A stretch of 64,000 nt of DNA from an uncultured Prevotellaceae bacterium (GTDB lineage Bacteria > Bacteroidota > Bacteroidia > Bacteroidales > Muribaculaceae): positions 248,001 through 312,000 of the forward strand of contig ONGE01000002.1 in NCBI GenBank assembly GCA_900317325.1, written 5' to 3'. Shown one piece after another: positions 544-33,172 of this stretch. Within the stretch, counting starts at the first letter, position 1. Each line of letters begins with the position of its first letter. The translations under genes and the position numbers were made by a program. Under the pieces are notes generated by a model. It saw nothing but the letters and a program-made list of their open reading frames with translations, was not told the origin of the DNA and ran no database searches.

Positions 544-2400
544 CTACATGTACAAGCGTTGATTCTCAAAGTCCACCTCGCGGTCGAGGAGGGTGACGAA
601 GTCGTCGAGCACCTCGCGGTCCACGTCGCCCAGGGTATATTCGTTCTCGGCGTCCTCGCGGATGAGGGCAATCCACTCGCGACGTGCAGTGACGTAATCC
701 TGATGGATACGTGCCACAGCCTCGTCGGTCAGCGCATCGATGCCGTAGTAGTCGAGAATGATGCGGTAACTCCAAGCCCAGCGCAGCTCGTTGTAGTTAG
801 CGTCGATTTCCTTGAATCGGGCATTCACAGCATCGATAGTGTTGAGGCGACCCGATACGATATCGTCAATGATCTTGTCCTCGGCAGTCTGCGGCAGAAG
901 CAGTCCCGCCAAGTCAATCCAGTTGCCCTCGCCCTCGGTCGAGACGGGAGGCTCCGGTTTGTGGCGCTTGAGCACAGCTCCCATATAGATGCGCAAAGCC
1001 ATGTCGTAGAACTTGATGCCCTTGTGCAGGAACGGTGCCTTGATGACATAGTCATGGTAGTTATAGGTACTCACATTGTCACCGCTGGCGGCACGCAGGT
1101 TCTCGAGAATCTTCTTTCCTCGCAGCACCTCGCTGATGGTGAACGGACTGAGCCAGTCGAAGTTGACCACGCTCTTGCGCACACCCTGCCCGCGCTTGTC
1201 ACGCTTGGGCCACTTGCGGATGTCGCGGTACAGGCCCACCGTGGCAAAGTTGCGGCCAGGCTTCAGGTACATCGTGTCGCCGTAGGCGATAAGATAGGAG
1301 AACGGCAGGTCGCTCGTGTCGGGGTGATACATCAGTTTGCCGAACAGCACGCTGAAGGCGCCCACGTTGGCAGGCAGCAGCAGGTAGGCACCGCTGGCGG
1401 TCTTGCAGCCGCGCTCCAGGGTACCGTAGTGCATCGGGCCCATCTTGTAGGCATGGTTGCTGAAGTTGGTGGCCGAACCCGCATTATAGAACGAGAACAT
1501 GGCGCCAATGAGCAACGAACTCTTGTGGTGGCTCACTGTGAACGGGCCGCAGAAGGCTGCGCAGGCCTCGCCGTTAGACATGAAGCTGTTGGCGAAGAAG
1601 ACACTGCTGGCTGCCGTGAAGCCGTTCTCGAGATGGCAGGACTCGCCCACAAAGCTGTCGGTAAGTTTCACGCTGCCGTTCAGGCGCGAACCGCCGCTCA
1701 CGATCGAATTGTCGCAGATCACACCGGTACCGATGATAATGGGATTCTCTATCGTGCTGCAGATGGTGCAGTTGCTCAAACGCGACGCGCCGCAGATGCG
1801 GCATCCGTCGTCGATGATCGTATTGATGATGGTACCCGTGTTGACCACACGCACATGATTGCCGATTGTGCTGCACGACGGGCGTGCATCGGCCACCGAT
1901 TGTGCTATCATGTGCCTGATGGCGTCCATCATCGGCTTGTTGTCGGCGTGCTTCACCATGAGTGCTGCCAACTGGCTGTTGAGCTCACGCAGCAGCAACA
2001 GGTTGCCGTCGCCCACCTCGTTGAGTACAGCGATGGTGTGACCCTGGCCGTAGTTGGGTTCGCCCTGGGTGTCGATGGTGCTCACATTGGAAATATAGCA
2101 CCCGTCGCCGATGGTCACGTTATTCATGTAATTGCCGATATTCTCGATCAGGCAGTTGTCGCCGATGGTCACATTGCGCAACGTGGCATTGTAGATGCCG
2201 CAGTTCTTCACAAAGCCGTCGGTGATCTCCACTGTGCCACAGCCGTTGCCCAGGCGGGCCCAGCCGTAGAACTGCACACGATGGCAGCGGCTGGCGTCAA
2301 AGTCGGCCGTCACCATGATATCATTCCAGTCTTGTGCCCAGCAGTCTTTTTCCTTCAAGGACTCGATTTGTTGGTCAGTGAGATGGAGGTATTCTTTCAT
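544..2400 (-). CDS. DUF4954 family protein (left-handed beta-helix, hexapeptide-type)
   Basis: A 618-residue cytosolic protein without signal peptide. Residues from about 60 to 300 repeat short I/V/N-G-D/N-x steps (for example VTIGDNCLIENIG and VTIGDGCYISNVS), the pattern of a left-handed parallel beta-helix as in hexapeptide acyltransferases. The C-terminal 200 residues are helical and charged. The whole length matches the Bacteroidetes family DUF4954, which has no assigned reaction; a sugar-nucleotide or acyl-transfer role is only inferred from the fold. A TACCTTTG -7 box lies on the minus strand at 2464-2457, about 60 bp before the ATG. Confidence 0.85.
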   Translation of the reverse strand: MKEYLHLTDQQIESLKEKDCWAQDWNDIMVTADFDASRCHRVQFYGWARLGNGCGTVEITDGFVKNCGIYNATLRNVTIGDNCLIENIGNYMNNVTIGDGCYISNVSTIDTQGEPNYGQGHTIAVLNEVGDGNLLLLRELNSQLAALMVKHADNKPMMDAIRHMIAQSVADARPSCSTIGNHVRVVNTGTIINTIIDDGCRICGASRLSNCTICSTIENPIIIGTGVICDNSIVSGGSRLNGSVKLTDSFVGESCHLENGFTAASSVFFANSFMSNGEACAAFCGPFTVSHHKSSLLIGAMFSFYNAGSATNFSNHAYKMGPMHYGTLERGCKTASGAYLLLPANVGAFSVLFGKLMYHPDTSDLPFSYLIAYGDTMYLKPGRNFATVGLYRDIRKWPKRDKRGQGVRKSVVNFDWLSPFTISEVLRGKKILENLRAASGDNVSTYNYHDYVIKAPFLHKGIKFYDMALRIYMGAVLKRHKPEPPVSTEGEGNWIDLAGLLLPQTAEDKIIDDIVSGRLNTIDAVNARFKEIDANYNELRWAWSYRIILDYYGIDALTDEAVARIHQDYVTARREWIALIREDAENEYTLGDVDREVLDDFVTLLDREVDFENQRLYM

Positions 2401-2749: not shown

Positions 2750-5620
2750 ATGAAAAAATTTTTATTTCTCTTGATGACGGTCATGCTGGCCGCATGGTCG
2801 GCCCAAGCTGCGACCTACTACGGCTTCAAGATCGGCGGTGTGGCGGTCAATAGTGACAACTACAACAACGTGACGGGCTCCAACATCAGCGGCTCGGTCT
2901 CCTACAACCCCTCGACCAACACGGTGACGCTGAACAACGTCACCATCGCCCGCACGGGCAGTTACAATCGTGCCATTCTCAATGAATCAAACGACGGCCT
3001 GATCGTGAACCTGCAGGGCACCAACAACCTGAGTGCCCAGGATGCCTCGGCCGTGCGTCTGGACAGCGGCGTGGGCATGACGATGAATGTCGTCAACGGC
3101 ACTACCACCATCAGCAGTGTTGACGAGGAGGCTATCTATGTTACCAGCAATTCCTCCCATTGCTTTTACATCAACGTCTTGGGCACCGGAAAACTTAATG
3201 TGAGTTCGACCAACAAGGCGGGCATTGCCAGCTCCAACACCTGCATTCTCTTCCTGAGCGGTGCGATGGACATCTATGGTAAGAAGGGCGCTCTGGACTG
3301 GGAGCACCAGGTGGTCATCACCAATACCAACGGGCTGACAGGCGTCACCATGCGTGCCACCGGCAATTCGAGTTATCCGGTCTTCAAGGCCAAAACCCTT
3401 ACCTTAAATAACAACAACCAGATCATCCTTCCCACCGGGGCGGTGTGGAACTCCTCACAGGGCACCATCACCTTGGACGGCTCGGCTGTCTACAACCGCG
3501 ACATCCTCATCGGCCGCGATTATGCCGTGCCCATCAATACCGCCAACTTCCCTGATGTCAACTTTCGCAATTATCTGCTAAGCTTTTACCCCAAAGGGTT
3601 CCTGAGCTCGACCGATATCGCCAACTTGACGACGCTCAACGTCAACAACAAGAACATTTCCAACCTGAAAGGTGTCGAACTGTTCACCAATCTGGAAAAC
3701 CTGGTATGCTATAGCAACAACTTGTCTTGGCTCAACGTGAGCGGTCTCACCAAGCTGCAATATCTGGATTGCGCCAACAACACCGCGTTGACCTCGCTCA
3801 ACGTCACCAACTGCACAAGCCTCAAAGAACTCTATTGCTACATTACAGCGCTCACGTCGCTCAATGTCACGAGCTGTACTGCACTGGAGACGCTCAACTG
3901 CAGGAACACAAACATAACGGAATTGCGGGTTACGAGTATGCCACATCTCATATCCCTGAACGTGAGCAACTGTACCTCGCTGCTGCGTCTTTATTGCTAC
4001 AATAACCCGTATATGATCAGGCTCAATGTCACTGGATGCACCGCTTTGCTATCGCTGAGTTGTTACCAAAACCCCAATTTCACTACCTTCATAGGACTGG
4101 CCGATTGCACGGCGCTCTGCAACCTCTATTGCTATGACTGTGCCTTGACCAGCCTCGACGATGTGCAGAGCCTGCCCAATCTGGCTTTACTGAGTTGCAT
4201 GAACAACCGCCTCACAACGTTAACGGTTAACAACAAGAGCCATCTCACTGACCTGTATTGCCAGAACAACCCCCAGTTGACCACACTTACGGTCATCGGC
4301 AACCCTTATCTCAGCACCTTGAATTGCAGCTACTGCACGGCACTGACTAATCTGAACTGCCGCTCCAATGACTTGACAACGCTCAACATCACCGGTTGCA
4401 CCGCGATCCAGGAATTGCGCTGCTACTACAATACTCCCCTGCAAACCATCACAGGATTGGGAGGCTGCACTGCCCTGACCTACTTCGACTGCGAGGACTG
4501 CTCCATCACCAGCTTGAGCGCTCTCCAGAACGCCAACAACATTGCCTCGATTCTTGCCCGTAACAACAAGCTCACCTCGTTTACCGTCTCGGGCAAGAGC
4601 CATCTCACTTACCTCAGGCTATCGGGAAACACCTCTCTGGCCACAGTCCATTGCTATACCAATGCGTTGACAACGCTTGACGTGACAGGGTGCACGTCGT
4701 TGTCCATCTTGGGTTGCTACGAGAATCCATCATTGAGCAAGATCATCGGCTTGGACGATTGCAGCAATCTCACCCAATTATTTGCCTATAACTGCGCATT
4801 CTCCACCCTCGATCTGTCCAACAAAACTAAATTATCAAAACTGTCTTGCTACGCCAACAGGCTCACCTCGTTGAACGTGACGGGCTGCACGGCACTGACA
4901 AATTTACTTTGTGGAGACAACTCCAACTTGACTGCCATCACAGGTCTTGACAACTGTCGAGCCATTACCACCCTCAACTGTGAAAACTGTGCCATCACCA
5001 ACCTGAACGCCACCAGTCTCATGTCGAATATCACAACCCTGGCGGCCGCAAACAACAAGCTGACCTCACTCTCACTCTACAACAAGACTAATCTGAAAAC
5101 ACTCATCGTTAGTAACAACACAACGTTGACATCACTCGAATGCTATTACAATAATTTGACCAATCTTAACGTCACAGGCTGTACCGCATTGAGCGAATTG
5201 CGTTGCTACAACAATGACAATCTGACTGCCATCACAGGCCTTGGCAGTTGCAGCGAATTGACCTATCTCGACTGTGAGGACTGCTCCATCAACACGCTCA
5301 ACGGCATTCAGAACAAGACCAAATTGGGAAGGATCTTTGCCCGCAACAACAACCTCACGCAACTTATCGTCACAGGCTGCACCTCATTGTATCATATCAA
5401 CTGTTACAAGAACAACATCAAGGGCGCCAACATGACCCTCCTGGTAAACAGCCTGCCCCAACGCACGGCCGACGAGCCAGGCAATCTGTATGCTCTCTAT
5501 AACACCGACGAGGGCAACACAATGAACGACGAGCAGATCGCCACCGCCAACAGCAAGTATTGGTGGCCCAAGAGGTACAACGGCTCAACTTGGGAAACTG
5601 ATCAATGCTGTAATGAGTGA
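2750..5620 (+). CDS. Secreted leucine-rich-repeat protein A, tail frameshifted
   Basis: A 956-residue protein. Residues 1-20 are a signal peptide ending SAQA. Residues 21-250 form a beta-rich domain with short repeats (NTVTLNNVTI). About 270-900 are many leucine-rich repeats of the form LxCYxNxLTSLNVTGCTAL, rich in Cys, Asn and Thr, as in Bacteroidales surface LRR proteins that bind host or glycan ligands. The paralog on the other strand (7823-10549) shares about 85 percent of bases in the first 200 bp, while the LRR bodies are clearly diverged. Compared with that paralog, 68 bp are missing after position 5598. This shifts the frame, ends the protein in ETDQCCNE and leaves the dockerin-like tail untranslated. 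It may be a decaying gene or one state of a rearranging pair. Confidence 0.85.
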   Translation: MKKFLFLLMTVMLAAWSAQAATYYGFKIGGVAVNSDNYNNVTGSNISGSVSYNPSTNTVTLNNVTIARTGSYNRAILNESNDGLIVNLQGTNNLSAQDASAVRLDSGVGMTMNVVNGTTTISSVDEEAIYVTSNSSHCFYINVLGTGKLNVSSTNKAGIASSNTCILFLSGAMDIYGKKGALDWEHQVVITNTNGLTGVTMRATGNSSYPVFKAKTLTLNNNNQIILPTGAVWNSSQGTITLDGSAVYNRDILIGRDYAVPINTANFPDVNFRNYLLSFYPKGFLSSTDIANLTTLNVNNKNISNLKGVELFTNLENLVCYSNNLSWLNVSGLTKLQYLDCANNTALTSLNVTNCTSLKELYCYITALTSLNVTSCTALETLNCRNTNITELRVTSMPHLISLNVSNCTSLLRLYCYNNPYMIRLNVTGCTALLSLSCYQNPNFTTFIGLADCTALCNLYCYDCALTSLDDVQSLPNLALLSCMNNRLTTLTVNNKSHLTDLYCQNNPQLTTLTVIGNPYLSTLNCSYCTALTNLNCRSNDLTTLNITGCTAIQELRCYYNTPLQTITGLGGCTALTYFDCEDCSITSLSALQNANNIASILARNNKLTSFTVSGKSHLTYLRLSGNTSLATVHCYTNALTTLDVTGCTSLSILGCYENPSLSKIIGLDDCSNLTQLFAYNCAFSTLDLSNKTKLSKLSCYANRLTSLNVTGCTALTNLLCGDNSNLTAITGLDNCRAITTLNCENCAITNLNATSLMSNITTLAAANNKLTSLSLYNKTNLKTLIVSNNTTLTSLECYYNNLTNLNVTGCTALSELRCYNNDNLTAITGLGSCSELTYLDCEDCSINTLNGIQNKTKLGRIFARNNNLTQLIVTGCTSLYHINCYKNNIKGANMTLLVNSLPQRTADEPGNLYALYNTDEGNTMNDEQIATANSKYWWPKRYNGSTWETDQCCNE

Positions 5621-5722
5621 GAATTTCAGCGGCATCAATCAGGCTAATGCCGACATGAATAACGACGGCAACATCAACATCACCGACGTGACGATGCTGA
5701 TCAACAATGTGATGGCCTCGTA
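5599..5722 (+). pseudogene. Out-of-frame dockerin-like tail of LRR gene A
   Basis: In the frame shifted relative to the main ORF, this stretch encodes LINAVMSENFSGINQANAD followed by MNNDGNINITDVTMLINNVM and a TAA at 5720-5722. It is the second calcium-binding-type repeat of a dockerin-like module. Its DNA is nearly identical to the tail of the paralog at 7654-7778. The first repeat, present in the paralog at 7779-7846, has been deleted here. Confidence 0.85.
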
Positions 5723-5769
5723 ATACTCACAACGATTACATCCCAAGAGGATAATCCCTGTTTTGACCA

Positions 5770-5808
5770 AAGGGGGAGAGTCTGCCAGAGTTGGCAACTC
5801 TCCCCCTT
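5770..5808. terminator. Strong symmetrical hairpin between convergent genes
   Basis: AAGGGGGAGAGT (5770-5781) pairs with ACTCTCCCCCTT (5797-5808), and an inner TGCCA/TGGCA stem closes a GAGT loop. It sits between the end of LRR gene A and the end of the convergent GH125 gene and can serve both directions. The remainder up to 6035 holds only the 28-bp palindrome at 5947-5974. Confidence 0.7.
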
Positions 5809-5946
5809 GTGTTATAGTGCTGATTGTCTGCTGGCGGAACACACACCCGATGAATCAGCCACCTTCGCTCTGCTCAGTTGTCTGATTTATCTCGGGTTAT
5901 CCAAAGGCCACCCGTCGGGTGTCAATGAGTTAGCCATTTCAGACCA

Positions 5947-5974
5947 GTAGAGACGCAAAATTTTGCGTCTCTAC
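5947..5974. repeat. 28-bp perfect palindrome, dispersed family (copy 1)
   Basis: The half-site GTAGAGACGCAAAA is followed directly by its exact complement. Imperfect copies occur at 58877-58898, 63297-63318 and 63366-63387. Here the copy is intergenic, 60 bp beyond the end of the GH125 gene. Confidence 0.85.
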
Positions 5975-6035
5975 AGACTATAAACATTGAGCATCAGCAC
6001 TTTGATTTCGTCAAACTCACGTTACCTTATCGTCC

Positions 6036-7505
6036 TCAATCCAGGCAGTGGACGAGCAGGTCGGTCTTGCCGTTGTCGATCAGGTGGATGACCAGTTCGC
6101 CGAACAGGGTGTTCTGCCAGGCGAACCAGGCGCGGGTGTAATGGGTGGGATCGTCCTTGTGGAAGGACTCATGCATGAATCCCGTGCCGGCGTCGGTGGT
6201 GAGCAGCTGGCGCATGCACCAGGCAATCTCCTCGTCGTTGTCGGCCGTGAAGGCTTTCATCATGATGCTCATGGGCCAGATGAGGTTATAGGCCGTGTGA
6301 GCGCCGCCGATGCCCTCGCAGGCCTTGCCCTTGAAGAAACACGGGTTGTCCTCGCTCCACACAAACCGACGCGTGTTGCGGTAGATGGGGTCATCCATCG
6401 GCACGTCACCCAGGTAGCCCATCGCCAGCAGGCTGGGCACATTGGCATCATCGGCCAGCACGCGGCCGCCCCAACCGTCCACCTCGTAGGCGTAGATCTT
6501 GCCATACTTGGGATGATCCACGATGGCATACTTGTGCAGGGCATCCTCTACCTCTTGAGCCAGGTCAAGACACTGTCCCGCCAAGGCATTGTTATGGTTG
6601 ACCTTCTGGAGAATCTCTCCGGCCTTGCGCAGCGAGCTCACAGCCATGAAATTGCTGGGCACCAGGAAGGGCAGCACCGTGGCATCGTCGCTGGGACGGA
6701 AACACGACACAATCAGTCCCACAGGATTGACGGGAGGTCCCCAGCCATACCACGTGAGCGATGACTTGGCGTCGATGTCGCGACGCATGAACTTGTACGG
6801 GCCCTTGTCGCCGTTCTTGCGCTGCTGCTCCTTGAAAGTGCGCAGCACGGCCTGCATCGCCTCTTGCCACAGATCGCCGAAGATACTGTCGTCGCCCGTG
6901 ACAAGCCAGTACTCATAGGCCAATCGTATGGGGTAGCACAGCGAGTCGATCTCGTATTTGCGCTCGTGCAGCTCGGGCTTCATGTCGGTCAAGTCATTCT
7001 CCCATTGACTGCCCGTGGGCCCGTCATTGAAAGCATTGGCATAGGGGTCCAAGACGATGCACTTCAACTGGCGCAGGATAACGCCGCGCAACATGTGGCG
7101 CAGTTTCTCGTCCTTGTTGGCATACTTGACATAGGGCCACACCTGGGCACCGCTGTCGCGCAACCACATCGCGTGGATGTCGCCGGTGTAAACAAAGGTG
7201 TCATCCTCGCCGTTCTCGTCGAGGCGGTAGTGCACCGTGCTGTCGAGCGTGTTGGGAAAACAGTTCTCGAACATCCACGCCAAGCGCGGATTGCCCTTAA
7301 TCAGCTTCATCACTTCACGCACACGTTGCTCAATGATTCTGCTGGTAAAGAGGCGTTCCTCGGCAGGCGGCCGCTTGGTGACATAGGTCGTGGTGGCATC
7401 GCTCACCACCGTGGTATAGCGGGGATGCACGTCGGCCACGGCGGGCAGCACGCCAACTGCGGCCACTACGGCCAGTAACATAAATCTAAGTTTCATCTCG
7501 GTCAA
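6036..7505 (-). CDS. GH125 exo-alpha-1,6-mannosidase, exported
   Basis: A 489-residue protein of the metal-independent GH125 family (formerly DUF1237), which removes alpha-1,6-linked mannose from N-glycan or yeast mannan fragments. The N-terminus [21 protein letters not shown] is a signal peptide; the listed ATG gives MTEMKLRF, and the ATG at codon 4 is equally likely. Family blocks visible are [75 protein letters not shown] and [19 protein letters not shown]. The length is normal and no lesion is seen. It lies alone between the two inverted LRR paralogs, so a recombination between them would flip it. A promoter is visible at 7555-7525. Confidence 0.93.
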
Positions 7506-7524
7506 TCATTTGGTTTCTCTATCG

Positions 7525-7555
7525 CAAAGGTAAATGAAAATCATGGAATCACCAA
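7525..7555 (-). promoter_or_regulatory. Promoter of the GH125 gene
   Basis: On the minus strand, -33 TTG at 7555-7553 and -7 TACCTTTG at 7532-7525 are 20 bp apart. The start codon follows 19 bp after the -7 box, so the leader is very short. Confidence 0.7.
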
Positions 7556-7653
7556 GCATTCCCCACCCTTTAATACAGTCGAGGCGCACCACACTTCCTC
7601 CGGGAATGGTACGCCTCGCCTATTCAAGGTTCACGGGCGCAAGGCCCTGTAGT

Positions 7654-7846
7654 TTAGCGGTTCATCACACGCGATATCAGAATGGTCACGTCGGTGATGT
7701 TGATGTTGCCGTCGTTATTCATGTCGGCATTAGCCTGATTGATGCCGCTGAAATTCTCACTCATCACAGCATTGATCAGAACAGTCACATCGGTGATGTT
7801 GACCACTCCGTCGTTGTTCACGTCACCCAGCATGCTTACCCTGAGC
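7654..7846 (-). pseudogene. Out-of-frame complete dockerin-like tail of LRR gene B
   Basis: Read in the frame shifted from the main ORF, this encodes both repeats of a dockerin-like module: LGDVNNDGVVNITDVTVLI, then ADMNNDGNINITDVTILI, ending RVMNR and TAA at 7656-7654. Each repeat has the D-x-N-x-D-G-x-x-N-x-x-D calcium-loop pattern. It follows a 74-bp deletion relative to paralog A, which throws the upstream ORF out of frame. The module itself is intact and is preceded by the same GSTWET linker as in gene A. Confidence 0.88.
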
Positions 7847-10549
7847 GTTTCCCAAGTTGAGCCGGGTGTTAAAGATGGCATACAGGTAACCCGGATTGTC
7901 CTCGCTGCGCTGGGGCAAACTGTTCACCAGGGTGGTCATGCCTGCGCCTGAAATCTGGTTCTTGTAGCATCTGATCATGTTCAACGTGGTGCAACCGGTG
8001 ACATCGAGTTGAGTGAGCCTGTTGTTGCTGACCAGGAGTTTTTGCAGTTCGGTCATGTTTTGAATATTATTCAGGGTGGTGATGGCGCAGTCCTCACAAT
8101 CGAGATAGATCAACCCCCTGCTACTGTAAAGACCTATGATGGAACTCAGGTTCTCATTGTTGTAGCAACGCAGGTGGGTCAAGCCGGTGCAACCGGTGAT
8201 GTTAAGCATTGTCAAATCATTGTAGAAGCAATTGAGCGTTGTCAGTGTCGGGTTGTTCTGCACGAGAATCGTTTTCAAACTGCTCTTGTTGGTGATTTCG
8301 AGCGAAGTCAACTGGTTGTTAATGGCCGACAGTAAAGAGATGTTCCCCATGCCATTGACAGCGCTCAGGTCGGTGAAGTCGCAGTTGTTGCAGTTGAGGA
8401 CGGAGATGGCTTGGCAACTGGCTAGTCCAGTGATGGCACTCAAGTCGGAGTTGTTGTCGCACATCATATCGGTCAGTGCCGAGCAACCTGTGAGGTTCAA
8501 CGAGGTCAGGTTATTGCTGCCGCAATCCAGTGTTGTCAATTTGTTCTTGCCGGACAGATCCAGGCTGGAGAATGCACAACTTTTGACGAAGAGTTTAGTG
8601 AGTTTGGTGCAGTCTGCCAGTCCAGTGATTGTGGCCAGTTCAGGATTTTCGTAACTGCTGAGAATGCCCAGCGATGTGCAACCTTCCACTTGGAGCGTGG
8701 TCAACGCATTCATGTAGCAATAGAGCGAGGTCAATGATGGGTTGCCCGAGACTTTAAGGGTCTTCAGTTTGCTCTTTTCAGTGATAGAGAATGACGTCAA
8801 CATGTTGTTGCGGGCAGCAATCCAGGTGATGTTATTGGCGTTCTGAAGTCCGGTCAGGGTGGTGATAGCGCAGTCCTCGCAGTCAATATAGGTCAGCGCT
8901 ACGCAGTTATCCAGACCCGAGATGCTTTTCAGTTGGGCATTGCTGAAGCAGCGCAGTTCCCTGATTGCGCGGCTGCCTGTGACGTAAAGATTGGTCAGGT
9001 TGTTGTTGCTGGCGTTCAGATTAATCAGCGCAGTGCAGTTGTTGCAATCCAAGTGGAAGAGCGCTGGGTTGTTGATGACTGTGACCGTGGCCAATGTGGG
9101 CATGTCCTGGAGATAAAGATGTGTGAGACTGGACTTGTTGCTGAGCGTGAACGATGAGAACTTGTTGCCCATGCAATTCACGCGAACCAGGTTGGACAGG
9201 TACTGCAAACCGTCCAAGTTGCTCAAGTTACATTCCTGGCAATAGAGGTTCTCGAGCGCATAGCATCCCGATATGTTCAGTTGGTCCAGCAGCGGGCAGT
9301 TATTGCAGTAGAGTTGTTGCAGCGAAGTGCAGTCTTTGACGTTCAGGTAGTTGAGTTTTGGCATATCTGGAACCTGCAATTCCGTCAGATTGGTCTTGCT
9401 GCAGTTGAGCGTTTCCAGTGCGGTGTTGGTCGTCAGGTTGAGCGACGTGATGGCGGTATTGAAGCAGTAGATGTCGGTGAGGGCCGTGCAATTTGTGGTG
9501 GTGAGCGACGTCAAGTTGCTGTTGCCGTTGCAGGTCAGGTATTTCAGTTTGGTCAGACCGCTCACGTCGAGCGAAGTCAGGTTGTTGCTGGCACATGCCA
9601 ACTCAACCAGATTGGTCAGCAGTTTGACGCCCGTCATGTTTGAAATGCCCATGCTGCTGACGTGTAGTTCCGTCAGGTTGGCGAATTCGGTCGAGTTAAG
9701 GAAACCTTTAGGATATAGTCCGAGCAGGTAATTGCGGAACTTGGTGTCGGGGAAGTTGGTGGAGTTGATGAGCAGGGCACAATCCTTGCCGATGATGATG
9801 TCGCGGTTGTAGACGGCCGAGCCGTTCAATGTGATAGTGCCTTGTGAGGAATTCCACACGGCTCCGGCAGGTTGGATGATCCCGTTGCCGTTATTCAGGT
9901 TGAGCGTTCCGGCTTTAAAGACTGGATAACTGGAATTGTTGGTGGCGCGCATGGTGATACCTGTCTTGCCATCAGTGTTTAAGATGTTGACCTGATTGTC
10001 CCAGTCTATCGCCCCCTTCTTGCCATTGATATCCATCGCTCCGTCCAGGGCGAGGGTGCATGAAGACCCGCTAGCGATACCGGCCTTGTTGGTGGATGTC
10101 ACATTCAGTTTTCCGTTCCCGAAGACCTTGATATAAAGTCTATAACTGGAATTGCTGTTGGAATAGATTGCCTCTTCGTTTTCGCTGCTGATGGTGGTGT
10201 TGCCATAGACGTTCATTGTCATGCCCACACCGCTGTCCAAGCGCACCGGAGCAGCATCCTTGGCGCTCAGGTTGTTGGTACCCATCAGTTTCACAATCAG
10301 GCCATTGTTGGACTCGTTGTAAATGCATCGGTTGTCGGTACCCGTGCGGGAGATGGTGACGTTGTTCAGCGTCACCGTGTTGGTCGTGGGGTCATAGGAG
10401 ACTGAGCCACTGATGTTGGAGCCGGTCACGTTGCTGTAGTTGTCACTGTTGACAGCCACGCCACCGATCTTGAAACCGTAGTAGGTGGCCGCCTGGGCCG
10501 ATAACGCGGTCAGCACCAACGCCATCATGAGAAATGTAATCTTTTTCAT
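7823..10549 (-). CDS. Secreted leucine-rich-repeat protein B, tail frameshifted
   Basis: A 908-residue paralog of LRR protein A with the same layout: signal peptide (residues 1-20, ending SAQA), beta-rich N-terminal domain to about 250, then LRRs of the LxCxxNxLTxLxVTGCT type to about 880. It lacks the segment equivalent to 5507-5580 of gene A, which encodes the stretch from DEGN to KRYN. The 74-bp loss shifts the frame, so the protein ends LNLGNAQGKHAG at a TGA inside the dockerin-like region. It converges on gene A with GH125 between them. The promoter and a conserved leader lie upstream. It could still be secreted and functional without its tail. Confidence 0.85.
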   Translation of the reverse strand: MKKITFLMMALVLTALSAQAATYYGFKIGGVAVNSDNYSNVTGSNISGSVSYDPTTNTVTLNNVTISRTGTDNRCIYNESNNGLIVKLMGTNNLSAKDAAPVRLDSGVGMTMNVYGNTTISSENEEAIYSNSNSSYRLYIKVFGNGKLNVTSTNKAGIASGSSCTLALDGAMDINGKKGAIDWDNQVNILNTDGKTGITMRATNNSSYPVFKAGTLNLNNGNGIIQPAGAVWNSSQGTITLNGSAVYNRDIIIGKDCALLINSTNFPDTKFRNYLLGLYPKGFLNSTEFANLTELHVSSMGISNMTGVKLLTNLVELACASNNLTSLDVSGLTKLKYLTCNGNSNLTSLTTTNCTALTDIYCFNTAITSLNLTTNTALETLNCSKTNLTELQVPDMPKLNYLNVKDCTSLQQLYCNNCPLLDQLNISGCYALENLYCQECNLSNLDGLQYLSNLVRVNCMGNKFSSFTLSNKSSLTHLYLQDMPTLATVTVINNPALFHLDCNNCTALINLNASNNNLTNLYVTGSRAIRELRCFSNAQLKSISGLDNCVALTYIDCEDCAITTLTGLQNANNITWIAARNNMLTSFSITEKSKLKTLKVSGNPSLTSLYCYMNALTTLQVEGCTSLGILSSYENPELATITGLADCTKLTKLFVKSCAFSSLDLSGKNKLTTLDCGSNNLTSLNLTGCSALTDMMCDNNSDLSAITGLASCQAISVLNCNNCDFTDLSAVNGMGNISLLSAINNQLTSLEITNKSSLKTILVQNNPTLTTLNCFYNDLTMLNITGCTGLTHLRCYNNENLSSIIGLYSSRGLIYLDCEDCAITTLNNIQNMTELQKLLVSNNRLTQLDVTGCTTLNMIRCYKNQISGAGMTTLVNSLPQRSEDNPGYLYAIFNTRLNLGNAQGKHAG

Positions 10550-10623
10550 AAGCCAAAACCATCGCCTCCTGAGTCCCCCGAATTTGGCTCTGATAGGGTT
10601 GAATGAATGGCGCAGGGACTTGT
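10550..10623 (-). promoter_or_regulatory. Conserved 5' leader of LRR gene B
   Basis: This is the counterpart of 2681-2749. It has the same AAGTCCCTGCGC, GGGGGACTCAGGAGGCGATG and TTTGGCTTATG blocks, with the same possible AGTCCC/GGGACT pairing (10620-10615 with 10577-10572). Sequence between the blocks differs. Confidence 0.5.
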
Positions 10624-10811: not shown

Positions 10812-10842
10812 TTGCAGCAAACCAAAAATGAGATTATATTTG
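10812..10842 (+). promoter_or_regulatory. Promoter of the coiled-coil protein and GH13 operon
   Basis: -33 TTG at 10812-10814 and -7 TATATTTG at 10835-10842, 20 bp apart. This placement rules out translation starting at the TTG at 10812 and supports the ATG at 10872. Confidence 0.75.
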
Positions 10843-10871
10843 CCTGTTGCAACCAAATGGTATTTGGGCCT

Positions 10872-12146
10872 ATGACATTAAAAAGAATACTTGTGACTCT
10901 GCTGGCGTGCATGGCGCTGGCAGCATCGGCACAGCCCACCCAACAACAGCCTGAATGGGAATGGTATCTCGACGAGGTAGTGAGTGAAACCTTCGTCGGT
11001 CGCAACTACTTTGAGTATTATTACACGCCCAGTGCCGCCGACATGGCACAGCAGCGCGATAGGGGAGAAGTGACCTATTTCCTGAACAGCCCCGACGGGC
11101 TCAACAGCAAGAAGGTGCGCGACATGATCGACCGCCTGATGGCCAGCTATGACGACATCAAGGCCGTCAACGACTGGCAAATGACCAGCACGACCTATTG
11201 GAAAGAATTCCGATTCGAGAAGAACAAGTTCCGATTCAGCGTCAAGCGCAAGGCACTCGACGACGGCACCTACTATGTGAGCGTTACCGAGAGCGCCGGC
11301 TACTACAAGTCATTAGGCAAGAAGAGCAAGCAGGAAGCCGAGCCCAAGCCCCAGGCTGTGGACAAAGTGGATAAGCCCACGAGGCACAGCACGCGCGAGC
11401 GCAAGCCCGTCGTCGTCCCCGAGGAGAGCGATGATCAAACTCCCATCGTGAACTTGATTGATGATGACCAGGAAGAAGAGGCCGAGCCTGAAGTGAGCGC
11501 CAAGGAACAGCGCAAACTCGATGCTCAGCGCCGTGAAGCCGAGAAACAAGAAATGCGTCTGAAACAACGGCGCGAACAGGAAAAGCGTCGCCAGGATGCC
11601 AAAGCGCAAAAGGAAGCCGAGAAACTGAAGAAAGCCGAGGAAAAGAAGCAAAAAGCCGAGGAGAAGAAGCAAAGAGAAGAAGAAAAACAGCTCAAAAAGG
11701 AAGAAGAACGTCGCCAGCGCGAGCAGGCTCGCCTCGAGCGGGAACAGGAACGCCAGGAGAAAGCCGCTGCGCGTAAACAAGCTGCGGCACCCAAGCCCGT
11801 CGAGAGCAAGTATCACTGCAACGACGTGGCCCTGTGGCTGAGCGAGAAATATGACTTCACCCAGACTGCCGGAACCAGCGTATCCTGCACCATGTTCTCG
11901 ACCGCCGTCAAGGATGTGGAGATGGCAAAGCTTGCGATCAAGAACGCCCTCAAGGGCAGCAACGCCCGCATGGCAGTGCCCTGGCGCATGAACAACGAGA
12001 CCCGGCAGGTCGAGACAGGCTATTCGGTCGATGACCATGTGCTGGTGTTCACCATCGGCAAGAACGAGGACGACAACATCACCGTCACCATCACCGAGGT
12101 GAGCAACGATGATTTTGAACTATTCAAGCAATCTATCAACAACTAA
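10872..12146 (+). CDS. Exported coiled-coil protein of unknown function
   Basis: A 424-residue protein. The ATG at 10872 is chosen because a signal peptide (MTLKRILVTLLACMALAASA) follows directly and the promoter lies just upstream. Residues about 25-140 form an aromatic-rich domain (WEWYLDEVV, YFEYYYTP). About 150-300 are extremely charged Glu/Lys/Arg/Gln repeats predicted to form a long single helix or coiled coil. The last 110 residues are another folded domain (CNDVALWLSEKYDF). I recognise no named family. Only 13 bp separate it from the GH13 lipoprotein gene, so the two probably form an operon in the cell envelope. Confidence 0.75.
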   Translation: MTLKRILVTLLACMALAASAQPTQQQPEWEWYLDEVVSETFVGRNYFEYYYTPSAADMAQQRDRGEVTYFLNSPDGLNSKKVRDMIDRLMASYDDIKAVNDWQMTSTTYWKEFRFEKNKFRFSVKRKALDDGTYYVSVTESAGYYKSLGKKSKQEAEPKPQAVDKVDKPTRHSTRERKPVVVPEESDDQTPIVNLIDDDQEEEAEPEVSAKEQRKLDAQRREAEKQEMRLKQRREQEKRRQDAKAQKEAEKLKKAEEKKQKAEEKKQREEEKQLKKEEERRQREQARLEREQERQEKAAARKQAAAPKPVESKYHCNDVALWLSEKYDFTQTAGTSVSCTMFSTAVKDVEMAKLAIKNALKGSNARMAVPWRMNNETRQVETGYSVDDHVLVFTIGKNEDDNITVTITEVSNDDFELFKQSINN

Positions 12147-12159
12147 AATTCAATATATT

Positions 12160-13512
12160 ATGAAAAAGCTTCTCTTATTCTTATCATTTTTAGCTCTGGT
12201 GGTGGCCATTGGCTGCAAGCCTAAGGATCACCATGCAATGCCCGTCACCGATAGCTTCATGGTGCCTGAGGTGGCCGACGTAGTGATGTATCAAGTCAAC
12301 CCCAGGGTGTTCGCCCCCTCCAACTCGTTCCAGGCCATCATCAGCCGTCTGGATTCAATCGAGGACCTGGGTGTGAACATGCTGTGGATCATGCCCATCT
12401 ACCCCATCGGTGAGGTAAAGAGCAAGAATTCGCCTTACTCGGTGCGTGATTATAAGGCTGTGGCCCCCGAGTATGGCACGGTCGATGACCTGCGCATGCT
12501 CGTCGAGTCGTGCCACGAGCGCGGTATGGGCGTCATCCTGGACTGGGTCGCCAACCACACGGCATGGGACAACGTGTGGGTTGAGCAACACCCCGACTGG
12601 TACACCCATGACTCGACAGGCAACATCATCTTCCCGCCGGGTACCGACTGGACCGATGTCGCCGACCTGAACTACGACAACAAGGAAATGCGCGCAGCGA
12701 TGGTCGATGCGATGCGCTATTGGGTGGACTCGGTCGGTGTGGACGGTTTCCGCTGTGATGTCGCCGACCAGGTGCCCGCCGATTTCTGGCTCGACTGCAT
12801 CAAGACCTTGCGCAACTCGGCCAAGCCGCGCCGCCTGATCATGCTTGCCGAGGGTGCCAATCCCGACAACTTCACGGCCGGATTCGACCTGAACTATGCC
12901 TGGGAATTCATGGGCGCCATCGCTCAAGTAATGAAAGGTGATGCCAAGGTGGGCAAGCTCATCAGCGTGGACAAGAACGAGTACAAGGATATGGGCCCGG
13001 GCAAATTCAAACTCAGGTTCACCACCAACCATGACGAAGCCACCAAGGCTTCGCCCATCAAGCTCTATGGTGGACCGCGGGCTTCGATGGCTGCCTTTGT
13101 AGCCACCACGATGATCCACGGCGGCATGCTCATCTACGGCTCACAAGAGGTGGGTTATCCCGAGACCATCAATTTCTTCCACTATGTACCTGTTGACTGG
13201 AACGCCAATCCCGCCATGCGCGAAGAGTACAAGAAACTCGTCTCGATCTACAACGATCACCCGGCACTGCGCAGCAGCGGCAAGTGCCTCCCCTTCGACG
13301 ACGATGAGAACAACGTCCTGTGTGTGGACCGTGTACTCAACAACGACAATGTGCTGGTGATTGTCAATGTGCGCAATGCGGCACACGGCATCGATGTGCC
13401 CGGCATGTGGGCTGGCCAAACGGCTGTCAACCTGATGACCGGCATGCCCATCGAACTGAAGCGCCACATCACGCTCCAGCCCTACGAGTACCTCCTGCTC
13501 GGCAAGAAATAA
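12160..13512 (+). CDS. GH13 alpha-amylase family lipoprotein
   Basis: A 450-residue protein. The start at 12160 gives a lipoprotein signal ending VVAIGC, so it is membrane-anchored by a lipidated Cys and probably periplasmic or surface-exposed. The GH13 barrel shows all conserved regions: DWVANHTA, GFRCDVAD with nucleophile Asp200, LAEGA with acid Glu231, and TTNHDEA with Asp292. A short C-terminal beta domain follows. It likely cleaves alpha-1,4-glucans, though GH13 specificity (amylase, maltodextrinase, transferase) is not set by these motifs. It shares a transcript with the upstream coiled-coil gene and is followed by a terminator at 13532-13567. No SusC/SusD genes are nearby. Confidence 0.92.
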   Translation: MKKLLLFLSFLALVVAIGCKPKDHHAMPVTDSFMVPEVADVVMYQVNPRVFAPSNSFQAIISRLDSIEDLGVNMLWIMPIYPIGEVKSKNSPYSVRDYKAVAPEYGTVDDLRMLVESCHERGMGVILDWVANHTAWDNVWVEQHPDWYTHDSTGNIIFPPGTDWTDVADLNYDNKEMRAAMVDAMRYWVDSVGVDGFRCDVADQVPADFWLDCIKTLRNSAKPRRLIMLAEGANPDNFTAGFDLNYAWEFMGAIAQVMKGDAKVGKLISVDKNEYKDMGPGKFKLRFTTNHDEATKASPIKLYGGPRASMAAFVATTMIHGGMLIYGSQEVGYPETINFFHYVPVDWNANPAMREEYKKLVSIYNDHPALRSSGKCLPFDDDENNVLCVDRVLNNDNVLVIVNVRNAAHGIDVPGMWAGQTAVNLMTGMPIELKRHITLQPYEYLLLGKK

Positions 13513-24122: not shown

Positions 24123-27100
24123 ATGAGTAAGGAAAAGAAATTCATGACGTGTGACGGTAACCAAGCTGCCGCCCACATCAGTTACATGTTCACCGAGGTA
24201 GCCGCAATCTACCCCATCACTCCGTCATCAACGATGGCCGAGCACGTGGACGAGTGGGCCGCTGCTGGCCGCAAGAACATCTTCGGCGAGACCGTCATGG
24301 TCCAGGAGATGCAGAGCGAGGGTGGTGCCGCTGGTGCCGTTCACGGTTCGCTGCAGGCTGGTGCCCTGACCACGACCTACACCGCGTCGCAGGGTCTGCT
24401 GCTGATGATCCCCAACATGTACAAGATTGCCGGCGAGTTGCTTCCTGGCGTGTTCCATGTTTCGGCCCGTACGCTGGCCAGCCACACCCTGTGTATCTTT
24501 GGTGACCACCAGGACGTGATGGCTACCCGCCAGACCGGTTTTGCCATGCTCGCCGAGGGCAGTGTGCAGGAGGTGATGGACCTCGCTGGTGTTGCCCACC
24601 TGAGCGCTATCAAGGCTCATGTTCCCTTTGTCAACTTCTTTGACGGTTTCCGCACCTCTCACGAGATCCAGAAGGTAGAGGCTATGGACCAGGAAGACCT
24701 GCGTCCCCTCATCGACATGGAGGAGCTGGCCAAGTTCCGCAAGGGTGCTATGAATCCCGACAAGCCCGTTACCCGTGGTACTGCCGAGAACCCCGACGTG
24801 TTCTTCCAGCACCGCGAGTCGTGCAACGATTACTATACCGCAGTTCCCGCCATCGTCGAGGACTACATGAACAAGATCAGCGAGATCACTGGCCGCAAGT
24901 ATGGTTTGTTTGACTACTACGGTGCCAAGGATGCCGACCGCGTCATCATCGCCATGGGCAGTGTGACCGAGGCTATCCGCGAGACCATCGACTATCTGAC
25001 CGAGAAGGGTGAGAAGGTCGGTCTGGTTGCCGTTCACTTGTATCGCCCCTTCAGCGCCAAGCACTTCCTCGCAGCCGTTCCCAGCACTGCCAAGCGCATT
25101 GCCGTGCTCGACCGCACCAAGGAGCCCGGCGCTAACGGCGAGCCCCTGTATCTCGACGTGAAGGACTGCTTCTACGGCACCGAGAATGCCCCCGTTATCG
25201 TGGGTGGCCGCTACGGCCTCGGTTCCAAGGACACCACGCCCGCCCAGATTCTCGCCGTTTACGAGAACCTGGCCCTGCCGATGCCTAAGAACCAGTTCAC
25301 CATCGGTATCGAGGACGACGTGACCTTCGCTTCGCTTCCCATGAAGGAAGAGGTGGCCATGGGTGGCGCCGGCATGTTCCAGGCCAAGTTCTACGGTCTG
25401 GGTGCTGACGGTACCGTGGGTGCCAACAAGAACAGTGTGAAGATCATCGGCGACAACACCGACAAGCACTGCCAGGCTTACTTCTCCTACGACAGCAAGA
25501 AGTCGGGTGGCTTCACCTGCTCTCACCTGCGTTTCGGCGACGAGCCCATCCGCTCGACCTACCTGGTGACCACGCCCAACTTCGTGGCTTGCCACGTTCA
25601 GGCCTACCTGCACATGTATGACGTGACCCGCGGTCTGCAGAAGGGTGGTACCTTCCTGCTGAACACCGTTTGGGACGGCGACAAGCTGGTAGAGAACCTG
25701 CCCAACAACGTGAAGAAGTACTTCGCCGACAACAACATCAAGGTTTACTACATCAACGCCACCAAGATCGCTCAGGAGATTGGTCTGGGCAACCGCACCA
25801 ACACCATCCTGCAGAGCGCCTTCTTCCGCATCACCGAGGTGATCCCCGTTGACCTGGCTATCGAGCAGATGAAGAAATTCATCGTTAAGTCCTATGGCCG
25901 CAAGGGTGAGGACGTGGTGAACAAGAACTACCAGGCCGTTGACCGTGGCAACGAGTACACCGAGTTGACCGTTGATCCCGCTTGGAGCAACCTGACCGTT
26001 GAGGGTCCCGCTGCCGACAATGCTCCCGCATTTGTCCACAACGTGGTTCGTCCCATCAACGCCCAGAACGGTGACCTGCTGCCCGTGAGCGCCTTCAAGG
26101 GCCGCGAGGATGGTACCTGGGATGCCGGTACCGCTGCCTATGAGAAGCGCGGTGTGGGTGCCTTCGTTCCCATGTGGAAGGCCGAGAACTGTATCCAGTG
26201 TAACAAGTGCGCACTCGTCTGCCCGCACGCTGCCATCCGTCCCTTCGTCATGGACGAGGCCGAGGCTGCCGCTTCTCCCTTCAAGGAGGAAGACAAGCTC
26301 AAAGCTATCGGCAAGGGCTTCGAGGGCATGACCTTCGTACAGGTTGTTGACGTGATGGACTGCTTGGCTTGCGGCAACTGCGCCGACGTTTGTCCGGGCA
26401 AGAAGGGCGAGAAGGCTCTCGTCATGGTTCCCATGGAGGGCCACGAAGAGGACCAGAAGCTCTGGGACTACGCCATCAACAATGTCAAGAGCAAACAGCA
26501 CCTGGTAGATGTCAAGGCTACCGTGAAGAACTCGCAGTTCGCTCAGCCGCTGTTTGAGTTCTCGGGCGCTTGCTCGGGTTGCGGTGAGACCCCCTATGTG
26601 AAGCTGATCAGCCAGTTGTTCGGTGACCGTCAGATCGTTGCCAACGCTACCGGTTGCTCGTCGATCTACAGTGCATCGGTTCCCTCGACTCCTTACACCG
26701 TTAACGAAAAGGGTCACGGTCCCGCTTGGGCCAACTCCCTGTTCGAAGACTTCTGCGAGTTCGGTCTGGGTATGACCATCGCCGACGAGAAGATGCGCAC
26801 CCGCGTCCTGGGCTTCGTCAAGGAGGCTATCGACGACGCTACCGTTGCTGCCGACGTGAAGGCCCTCTACAAGGAGTGGGTTGAGAACTTCAACGACGGT
26901 GACAAGACCCGCGAGCTCAGTGACAAGATTCTCGAGGCTATCGAGCACAGCGACAATCCCGCCGACATCAAGGTTCGCGAGCTGGGTCAGTACCTGGTTA
27001 AGCGTTCGCAGTGGATCATCGGTGGTGACGGCGCCAGCTATGACATCGGCTTCGGCGGTCTGGACCACGTGATTGCCAGCGGTAAGAACGTGAACATCCT

Positions 27101-27701: not shown

Positions 27702-27738
27702 CGCAGGGCTGGAACACGTTTCCAGTCCTGTGTTTTTT
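27702..27738 (+). terminator. Terminator of the PFOR gene
   Basis: CGCAGGGCTGGA (27702-27713) and TCCAGTCCTGTG (27721-27732) form a stem with wobble pairs, followed by TTTTTT. Confidence 0.75.
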
Positions 27739-27790
27739 CTGTACTTCAACCCACCATCTCTCACACTTCATCGCATTTTTAGCGGAAAGA

Positions 27791-27822
27791 TTTGGAAATT
27801 CACACAATAAGCCTTACCTTTG
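27791..27822 (+). promoter_or_regulatory. Promoter of the FGE-like protein gene
   Basis: -33 TTTG at 27791-27794 and -7 TACCTTTG at 27815-27822, 20 bp apart. The leader to the ATG at 27966 is about 135 nt. Confidence 0.75.
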
Positions 27823-27965
27823 CGACAACTTGAATGCGTAACGGCTTGATTTCTTAAAATGTCGCATCAAGCGATATGTCGTTCAGGGTAAAATGCTGGA
27901 CAAATGCCTTGCCCGGCATGTGTGGTTAATAGCAGTTTGGATGAACCTAATTATTTAGTTTATTT

Positions 27966-32208: not shown

Positions 32209-32280
32209 TTTAATCTAAGATGTTAGGCTTTCAGCTCAACGCTGAAAAGCAGGTTAATTAATGGTTTTAGTTCTAGGGTA

Positions 32281-32312
32281 CAAAGGTAGTGCAAGTCGAG
32301 CGGAGTGCCAAA
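32281..32312 (-). promoter_or_regulatory. glnA promoter carried by repeat unit 1
   Basis: On the minus strand, -33 TTTG at 32312-32309 and -7 TACCTTTG at 32288-32281, exactly 20 bp apart. The -33 box, the spacer and half of the -7 box belong to the 51-bp repeat. Confidence 0.75.
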
Positions 32313-32335
32313 CAAAAAGCTACTTTTTTGTTTGC
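32285..32335. repeat. 51-bp promoter-bearing direct repeat, unit 1
   Basis: Begins GGTAGTGCAAGTCGAGCGGA and ends with the inverted pair CAAACAAAAAG and CTTTTTTGTTTG. Unit 2 (32374-32424) differs by only one base (T to C at the hairpin tip). Confidence 0.9.
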
Positions 32336-32373
32336 AATCCCGAGACGCAGCCTACCTTCGCCCCAAGGGCAAC

Positions 32374-32424
32374 GGTAGTGCAAGTCGAGCGGAGTGCCAA
32401 ACAAAAAGCCACTTTTTTGTTTGC
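32374..32424. repeat. 51-bp promoter-bearing direct repeat, unit 2
   Basis: Second copy, 89 bp from the first. On the minus strand its -7 box is degenerate (TACCGTTG), so it should not fire toward glnA. On the plus strand its terminal TTTG (32420-32423) is the -33 element of the next gene. Confidence 0.9.
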
Positions 32425-32450
32425 CTTGTCGGGTAAAAAAGGTATCTTTG
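32420..32450 (+). promoter_or_regulatory. Promoter of the dockerin-tailed secreted protein
   Basis: -33 TTTG (32420-32423), supplied by repeat unit 2, and -7 TATCTTTG (32443-32450), 19 bp apart, 26 bp before the ATG at 32477. Confidence 0.75.
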
Positions 32451-32476
32451 CCTGTCCAACAAATCTGCAACCCGTC

Positions 32477-33172
32477 ATGAAAAAGATTCTCGTCACTCTA
32501 GCCACGGCTCTTGCCATCTCCCTTGCCGCCCATGCCCAGGAACTGCCCCAGTTCACCGCTTCCAATTTCGAGGGCTGGCAATACAACAATCCCGGTATCT
32601 CCCTCACGACGACCGATATCGCCAGGGGCAACATCGTGCTCTATGTCACCCGTCAGGGCCTTGCGCTGCAGCTCACCTCGCCGCTCTTCAGCTGCCAGAG
32701 CCTCGACAGCATCGAGGCCAGCCTCATCTGGTTCACCCAATACTACTACGACAGTTCGTTCGACCTCAACAAGACCGCCTTGACCATGGCAATCGACGAC
32801 GAGACGGGGGTTGCGCTCGACTCGGTGACCTATCTGCCCGAAGCAGCGGGCAGCACACACTATCCTGTCATCAGGCTAGCCGTCCCACAGGGACTGAACA
32901 CCGCGAGGGTGCGCTTCGTTTCCTGGAAAGCCGATGTAGTGAGTTGCGGAGCCATCAAGCGGGCCCTGCTCACGGGCATCGCCGCAACGCCACACGACGA
33001 CCCGCTGCCCGGCGACATCGACAGCAACGGTGTGGTCAACATCAGTGATGCCACCATGCTCATCCAAGCCCTGATGCTCGAACAGCAGGTACCCAATGCC
33101 GACTTCGACGGCAACGGAATAATCAACATCACCGACGCCACCCTCCTCATTGATTACGTACTCAGGCACTGA
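32477..33172 (+). CDS. Secreted protein with C-terminal dockerin-like module
   Basis: A 231-residue protein. The ATG at 32477 is chosen because it begins the signal peptide MKKILVTLATALAISLAAHA and follows the promoter. Residues 22-165 are a beta-sandwich-like domain (FTASNFEGWQYNNPGISL, ARVRFVSWKADVVSCGAIKR), similar in style to carbohydrate-binding or DUF4465-like folds, but not firmly assigned. Residues 172-231 carry two dockerin-like repeats, GDIDSNGVVNISDATMLI and ADFDGNGIINITDATLLI, ending LRH. Both loops keep the Asp/Asn calcium-ligand pattern. Divergent from glnA through the repeat-borne promoter region. Confidence 0.82.
   Translation: MKKILVTLATALAISLAAHAQELPQFTASNFEGWQYNNPGISLTTTDIARGNIVLYVTRQGLALQLTSPLFSCQSLDSIEASLIWFTQYYYDSSFDLNKTALTMAIDDETGVALDSVTYLPEAAGSTHYPVIRLAVPQGLNTARVRFVSWKADVVSCGAIKRALLTGIAATPHDDPLPGDIDSNGVVNISDATMLIQALMLEQQVPNADFDGNGIINITDATLLIDYVLRH

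Follow-up and report, generated by a model that had tools for sequence, protein, structure and literature searches.

The locus described here raises the question of why two inverted LRR genes, located on either side of an alpha-mannosidase gene, carry dockerin tails that are out of frame next to losses abutting the same short tract. The window, the whole stretch of DNA analysed, comprises 64,000 nucleotides from an uncultured Prevotellaceae bacterium. A sequence-only reading had offered two explanations, a phase-variable switch of surface anchoring or the relic of an inversion. The striking pattern of reciprocal deletions can be explained from the sister genomes without a switch. It is probably the result of ectopic gene conversion together with two deletions; the LRR genes involved also appear to undergo exchange of segments from species to species.

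Arrangement of the locus and the two losses

Gene A occupies positions 2750-5620 of the plus strand as an open reading frame of 956 amino acid residues, which closes before its own dockerin. Its LRR paralog, gene B (positions 7823-10549, minus strand), has 908 residues and 64% amino acid identity to gene A. Both proteins match LRR_4 (PF12799) with 108.4 and 95.0 bits for A and B, respectively, above the cut-off of 27 (E-value of 1.2e-31 for gene A in the profile search), and both start with a Sec-type leader as judged by eye. The internalin J model gave 119.6 and 104.7 bits, short of the NCBIfam cut-off of 1700, and the likeness of A and B to internalins is one of repeat type only. The GH125 gene for a metal-independent alpha-mannosidase is located between the two inverted genes, as had been recognised before (positions 6036-7505, minus strand; PF06824, E-value of 7.6e-164), and the arms formed by the inverted tails of A and B are approximately 2 kb apart. 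The left neighbour E1, a DUF4954/DUF6819 protein (positions 544-2400, minus strand), and the right neighbour E2 (positions 10812-12146, plus strand; no Pfam match at 1e-5) serve as markers of orientation.

A fragment of 74 bp (positions 5507-5580, plus strand), carried by gene A and by all three of its orthologs, is absent from gene B. A fragment of 68 bp (positions 7779-7846, minus strand), corresponding to the first dockerin repeat, is present in gene B and in gene A of the related species G015, but is absent from gene A of the window; G069 and G075 carry a diverged form of it. Between these points the two genes share an identical tract of 18 bp, found at positions 5581-5598 of the plus strand in gene A and 7847-7864 of the minus strand in gene B. 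Both losses are clean; the 68-bp loss in gene A directly follows this tract, and the 74-bp loss in gene B borders the copied segment described below on its upstream side. Both losses are blunt, with 0-1 nt of microhomology by eye on the alignment, and lie 18 bp apart.

Gene B reads out of the dockerin frame after its 74-bp loss. Its two dockerin repeats are found in a separate open reading frame of 75 residues (positions 7654-7881, minus strand; PF00404, E-value of 2.3e-16), which reads GSTWETLRVSMLGDVNNDG, in the frame corresponding to the GSTWET frame of gene A. The dockerin remnant of gene A, with the A-type end, is located out of frame at positions 5599-5723 of the plus strand and matches positions 18-56 of PF00404 with 34.6 bits in an open frame of 65 residues. 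The part lost from the frames of A and B is a type I dockerin. The tail behind gene B resembles type I dockerin proteins by its score in its own frame. The difference is that the dockerin of A and B is not in frame with the LRR gene, while it is in frame in gene A of G015, G069 and G075. At present, the two genes would encode secreted LRR proteins that lack a dockerin. Programmed frameshifting was left aside, since gene A keeps only part of the domain and the relatives encode the tail in frame.

The coordinates given earlier for both absent fragments were correct. The identity of the 18-bp tract was confirmed by sequence, and the out-of-frame position of both tails by the open reading frames and the PF00404 frames. 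The GSTWET frame was also assigned correctly, and no joining of the two genes is needed to obtain it, as the tract in the 75-residue frame behind gene B reads GSTWET as in gene A. The gene ends are indeed near-identical (80 bp without a difference and 97% identity over 104 bp, far above chance), and the LRR bodies have diverged, with 56-85% identity per 100-column window outside the tails. The first 200 bp plus leader had likewise been described as near-identical. However, the identity of the 5' ends is only 83-85%, and 76% in the 100-column window containing the leader, so that homogenised 5' ends were rejected. The 5' end of gene B is slightly closer to gene A of G069 (86-88%) than to gene A of the window, which argues against recent homogenisation of A and B at this end. 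The tails have recombined, as had been proposed for the gene ends.

The probable ancestral tail of gene A and the origin of the tail of gene B

The search of the genus covered 101 genomes, with the window genome (G000) included. Close and nearly full-length matches to gene A were found in three other species, G015, G069 and G075, with amino acid identities of 96%, 92% and 79%, respectively. These orthologs consist of 1013, 1013 and 1012 residues, and each has a two-repeat dockerin in frame. The tail in G075 is clearly different in sequence, with 50-59% identity to the tail of gene B. Gene A of G015 reads NGSTWETLRVSMLGDVNNDG, which is the junction that had been predicted from a crossover between A and B, and the postulated frame-intact tail is thus a naturally existing sequence. 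The tail of gene A in the window corresponds to the G015 tail without the 68 bp and differs from it at one other site up to the stop codon. Since the predicted junction is carried by gene A of G015, the 'rebuilt' intact tail is most simply the ancestral tail of gene A. An in-frame dockerin is found in 13 of 13 LRR/dockerin open reading frames of at least 200 residues reported in the loci of 39 relatives; eleven of these adjoin the GH125 gene and two (loci L085 and L088) are located beyond the amylase gene.

No ortholog of gene B was found among the 101 genomes of the genus, its own included. At E-values up to 1e-90 its matches, besides itself, were the A genes (59-69%) and one gene of 48% identity in G069. 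When gene B is compared with the four A genes, the identity is about 54-88% per 100-column window along the gene. At the 18-bp tract it jumps from about 70-75% to 100%; from the tract on, gene B agrees with gene A of G015 in 94 of 94 columns and in 91 of the next 100. The tail of gene B (positions 7685-7864, minus strand) is a near-perfect copy of the A tail, approximately 180 bp in length with the 68 bp included, and differs from gene A of G015 at 2 sites in 180 bp. This A-like segment of high identity ends at a C-type end. The dockerin frame behind gene B closes with codons (positions 7654-7684, minus strand) that match, as does the 3' flank, a third LRR gene, gene C, of 887 residues, which holds the place of gene B in G015. 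Gene A keeps an A-type end and 3' flank, as does gene A of G015. Gene B thus consists of an LRR body, an A-type dockerin and a C-type end.

At one of the 2 sites at which the tail of gene B differs from G015, a third codon position, a T is common to genes A and B of the window, where G015 and G069 have C. This suggests that the donor of the tail of gene B was the window genome's own gene A, at that time still with the 68 bp. Both the identity of the donor and the order of events depend on this one shared T. The same T is also present in the more distant tail of G075 and in gene C of G015, so it could have arisen twice, which makes the point about the donor a weak one. Alternatively, the tail may have come from a gene A of a different strain or species.

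Ectopic gene conversion between inverted paralogs leaves a short, sharp-edged tract of identity and does not flip the intervening unique sequence. The same features are seen in genes A and B, with an abrupt tract of high identity in otherwise diverged paralogs and the orientation of the GH125 gene kept. The flanks have not been exchanged: the A-type end and flank are found in gene A and the C-type end and flank in gene B. The locus differs from such conversion in the blunt loss at the edge of the recipient and in the separate loss in the presumed donor.

In the history that we propose, the ancestral genes A and B would both have encoded LRR proteins with Sec-type leaders and a C-terminal pair of type I dockerin repeats. 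The tail of gene B is a recent copy of an A-type tail in which the 68 bp were still present, and this copy would have arisen either by RecA-type ectopic gene conversion or by replicative template switching between the inverted tails. The 74-bp loss of gene B might be the ragged edge of this copying event or a later deletion. If the genome's own gene A was the donor, its 68-bp loss would have occurred after the copying. The LRR genes at the GH125 locus would recombine repeatedly, apparently also between species. Since only four of the dockerin matches listed for the window genome are in open frames shorter than 100 residues (see below), it is uncomfortable for conversion plus deletions that two independent losses in one neighbouring pair are a coincidence, which counts against this history. 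Two blunt losses abutting one 18-bp tract would be better explained by a single event or by an exchange.

Orientation of the GH125 gene and alternative explanations

Orientation was read in 40 of 55 GH125 loci (the window, the three ortholog loci and 36 others), with one genome per species; the 15 loci left out of the count have 62-68% GH125 identity. The GH125 gene has a constant orientation relative to E1 in all 38 loci containing both genes; in the two remaining loci, L078 and L106, its orientation relative to E2 is likewise the same. The presence of both orientations among related genomes was not found, all 40 loci from one genome per species being the same.

Surface-gene inversion switches consist of inverted paralogs around a unique segment. 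The A/B locus is alike in having inverted paralogs that flank a unique segment, but differs in that there is no change of orientation among relatives and no recombinase family among the scanned proteins (28 other proteins of the window, smaller open reading frames left out, at E-values up to 1e-5). In the switch proposed earlier, recombination at the 18-bp tract would invert the GH125 gene and toggle an intact dockerin on gene A. The reading frames do match at this tract, and the intact junction is present in G015. However, the exact tracts of at least 16 bp shared by A and B measure 80, 35, 20, 19, 19, 18, 18 and 16 bp, and a frame-restoring crossover is possible only within the 18-bp tract at positions 5581/7864, which is tied sixth in length. 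The 80-bp tract is located beyond both lesions and the other tracts before them, and after a crossover in any of these each chimeric gene would still have one lesion. The long tract beside the restoring one would therefore repair nothing. A single inversion through the tails would in addition swap the ends and flanks of the two genes. The tail ends and 3' flanks, A-type and C-type, are unswapped, which argues against the switch and against a simple inversion; the simple inversion relic, the other explanation offered earlier, was rejected because they are in place in A and B. The on/off inversion switch, judged between species with one genome each, is unsupported, and we consider it very improbable.

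The position of both losses next to the same tract would be explained by one reciprocal exchange with two crossovers, the first within the 18-bp tract and the second immediately behind it, by which an older, doubly deleted gene B gained the 68 bp from a gene A that was still intact. Such an exchange would leave the GH125 gene and both gene ends in place. It also requires a crossover inside 18 bp, and gene B must first gain an A-type tail and then lose pieces on either side of an 18-bp island, a sequence of steps that we find quite unlikely. A single complex event of template switching or break repair, in which the tail of gene A was copied to gene B and both genes were damaged together, might also account for two blunt losses at a distance of 18 bp in genes whose inverted tails are near-identical. 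A donor is not expected to suffer damage, and the harm to gene A counts against a single event. In yeast, template switching between inverted repeats is reported to homogenise the repeat arms (PMC8604942). The repeats reported there are short and the changes are multinucleotide substitutions, while in A and B about 180 bp is involved, with the arms about 2 kb apart. The tail strand of intact gene A in G015 is not unusual in its predicted folding and folds no better than shuffled sequences (z of 0.81). This also speaks against a single event, which is unlikely in our estimate; a deletion driven by a hairpin was rejected on the same calculation.

An artefact of assembly or of strain mixture has to be considered as well, in which one of the losses, both of them, or the A-like tail of gene B would be present in no single chromosome. 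The window genome consists of 44 contigs, is 94% complete and may be metagenome-assembled, and inverted tails that are near-identical and separated by 2 kb are prone to assembly errors. However, there is little homology, if any, at the junctions of the losses, and an overlap assembler would therefore not be expected to create them. The gene order and orientation are the same as in G015, and E1, the GH125 gene, E2 and the adjoining amylase gene are full-length open frames. We hold an artefact to be an unlikely, though not a negligible, source of the pattern. The lesions are known from one assembly of the species and may be fixed or segregating. Nothing on the A/GH125/B locus was found in the portions of the literature retrieved, and viral contigs contained neither of two exact sequence patterns, 30 and 34 bases in length.

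LRR genes and dockerins in the related genomes

The LRR genes are the variable part of the 40 GH125 loci read. The window genome, G015 and G069 are the only ones in which an LRR gene was found between E1 and GH125. Beyond GH125 an LRR gene is found in the window genome, G015, G069 (a fragment at a contig edge), G075, G095 (a weak match), G078, G073, G071 and G082. In G075 the A-type gene occupies the site of gene B, in the orientation of gene B.

The divergence of the LRR genes was compared with that of E1 and GH125 at fourfold sites. Between the window genome and G015, differences are found at 65 of 495 sites in E1 and GH125 together and at 0 of 199 sites in codons 356-770 of gene A. The corresponding values for G069 are 158 of 442 and, in codons 471-770, 1 of 144, and for G075 they are 172 of 437 and, in codons 241-470, 5 of 104. 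For G069 the dS values are 0.84 for E1, 0.61 for GH125 and 0.019 for codons 471-770 of gene A. For codons 1-355 and 771-950 in G015 and codons 1-120 and 621-950 in G075 the divergence does not fall significantly below that of the flanks at the 0.05 level, and for codons 121-240 in G075 it is higher than in the flanks. The LRR core of gene A (positions 3675-5075 of the window) has 97-100% identity per 100-column window to both G015 and G069, although for E1 and GH125 the identity between G069 and the window genome is only 84-87%. The A-type gene of G075 (locus L057, positions 7570-10608) looks mosaic; its identity to gene A of the window is 96% in codons 241-470 (dS of 0.065) and 73-81% elsewhere.

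The LRR gene at the site of gene B in G071 and G082 differs at 1 of 440 fourfold sites, as against 71 of 251 in E1 and 20 of 223 in GH125. The identity of these two genomes falls from 99.8% to 82.8% just past the LRR gene and fades slowly on the other side through GH125; they are 94-97% identical 2-5 kb to the left of GH125, with E1 as a low spot. This LRR-dockerin gene is located at positions 7264-9933 of locus L093 and 10831-13500 of locus L100 (flipped), and its near-identity in the two species suggests a recent transfer. In view of the low divergence of the LRR genes and the higher divergence of E1 and GH125, a transfer of LRR genes, or of their cores, from one species to another appears to have taken place at the GH125 locus. 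The parts of gene A that do not stand out from the flanks, and the 94-97% identity to the left of GH125 in G071 and G082, count against such exchange. A broader proposal is that the LRR genes on either side of GH125 constitute a cassette locus of this genus that is prone to recombination, in which cores cross species, tails are copied from gene to gene, and forms of the same LRR protein with and without dockerin segregate in the population; this is improbable in our view. The LRR segments that are near-identical between species whose neighbouring genes differ at 36-39% of fourfold sites suggest that proteins of the secreted type were recently exchanged between these species.

The window genome contains 152 type I dockerin matches. 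Among the dockerin matches listed, four are in open frames shorter than 100 residues: those of A and B, another at the end of a contig and a fourth on contig C24. The last of these (positions 27727-27873, locus L029) has a short frame of about 81 residues and is perhaps another frameshifted tail. In the 20 dockerin loci examined, no motif was found on either strand at L021, L023 and L033. Within the window, a protein of 303 residues (positions 32261-33172) has its C-terminal dockerin in frame (PF00404, E-value of 2.4e-10). No match to cohesin (PF00963) over the cut-off was found in this genome, which is 94% complete, the one match scoring 22.2 bits against 24.1. This cohesin-like match is located at positions 25439-25783 of contig C8, in an open frame of 739 residues, and for a dockerin match at positions 25835-25993 of this contig an open frame of equal length is reported. 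With 152 dockerins and no cohesin over the cut-off, surface anchoring by the dockerin itself is unproven. If the loss of the dockerin segregates in the population, it would provide a natural test of the role of these numerous dockerins in a genome without a clear cohesin.
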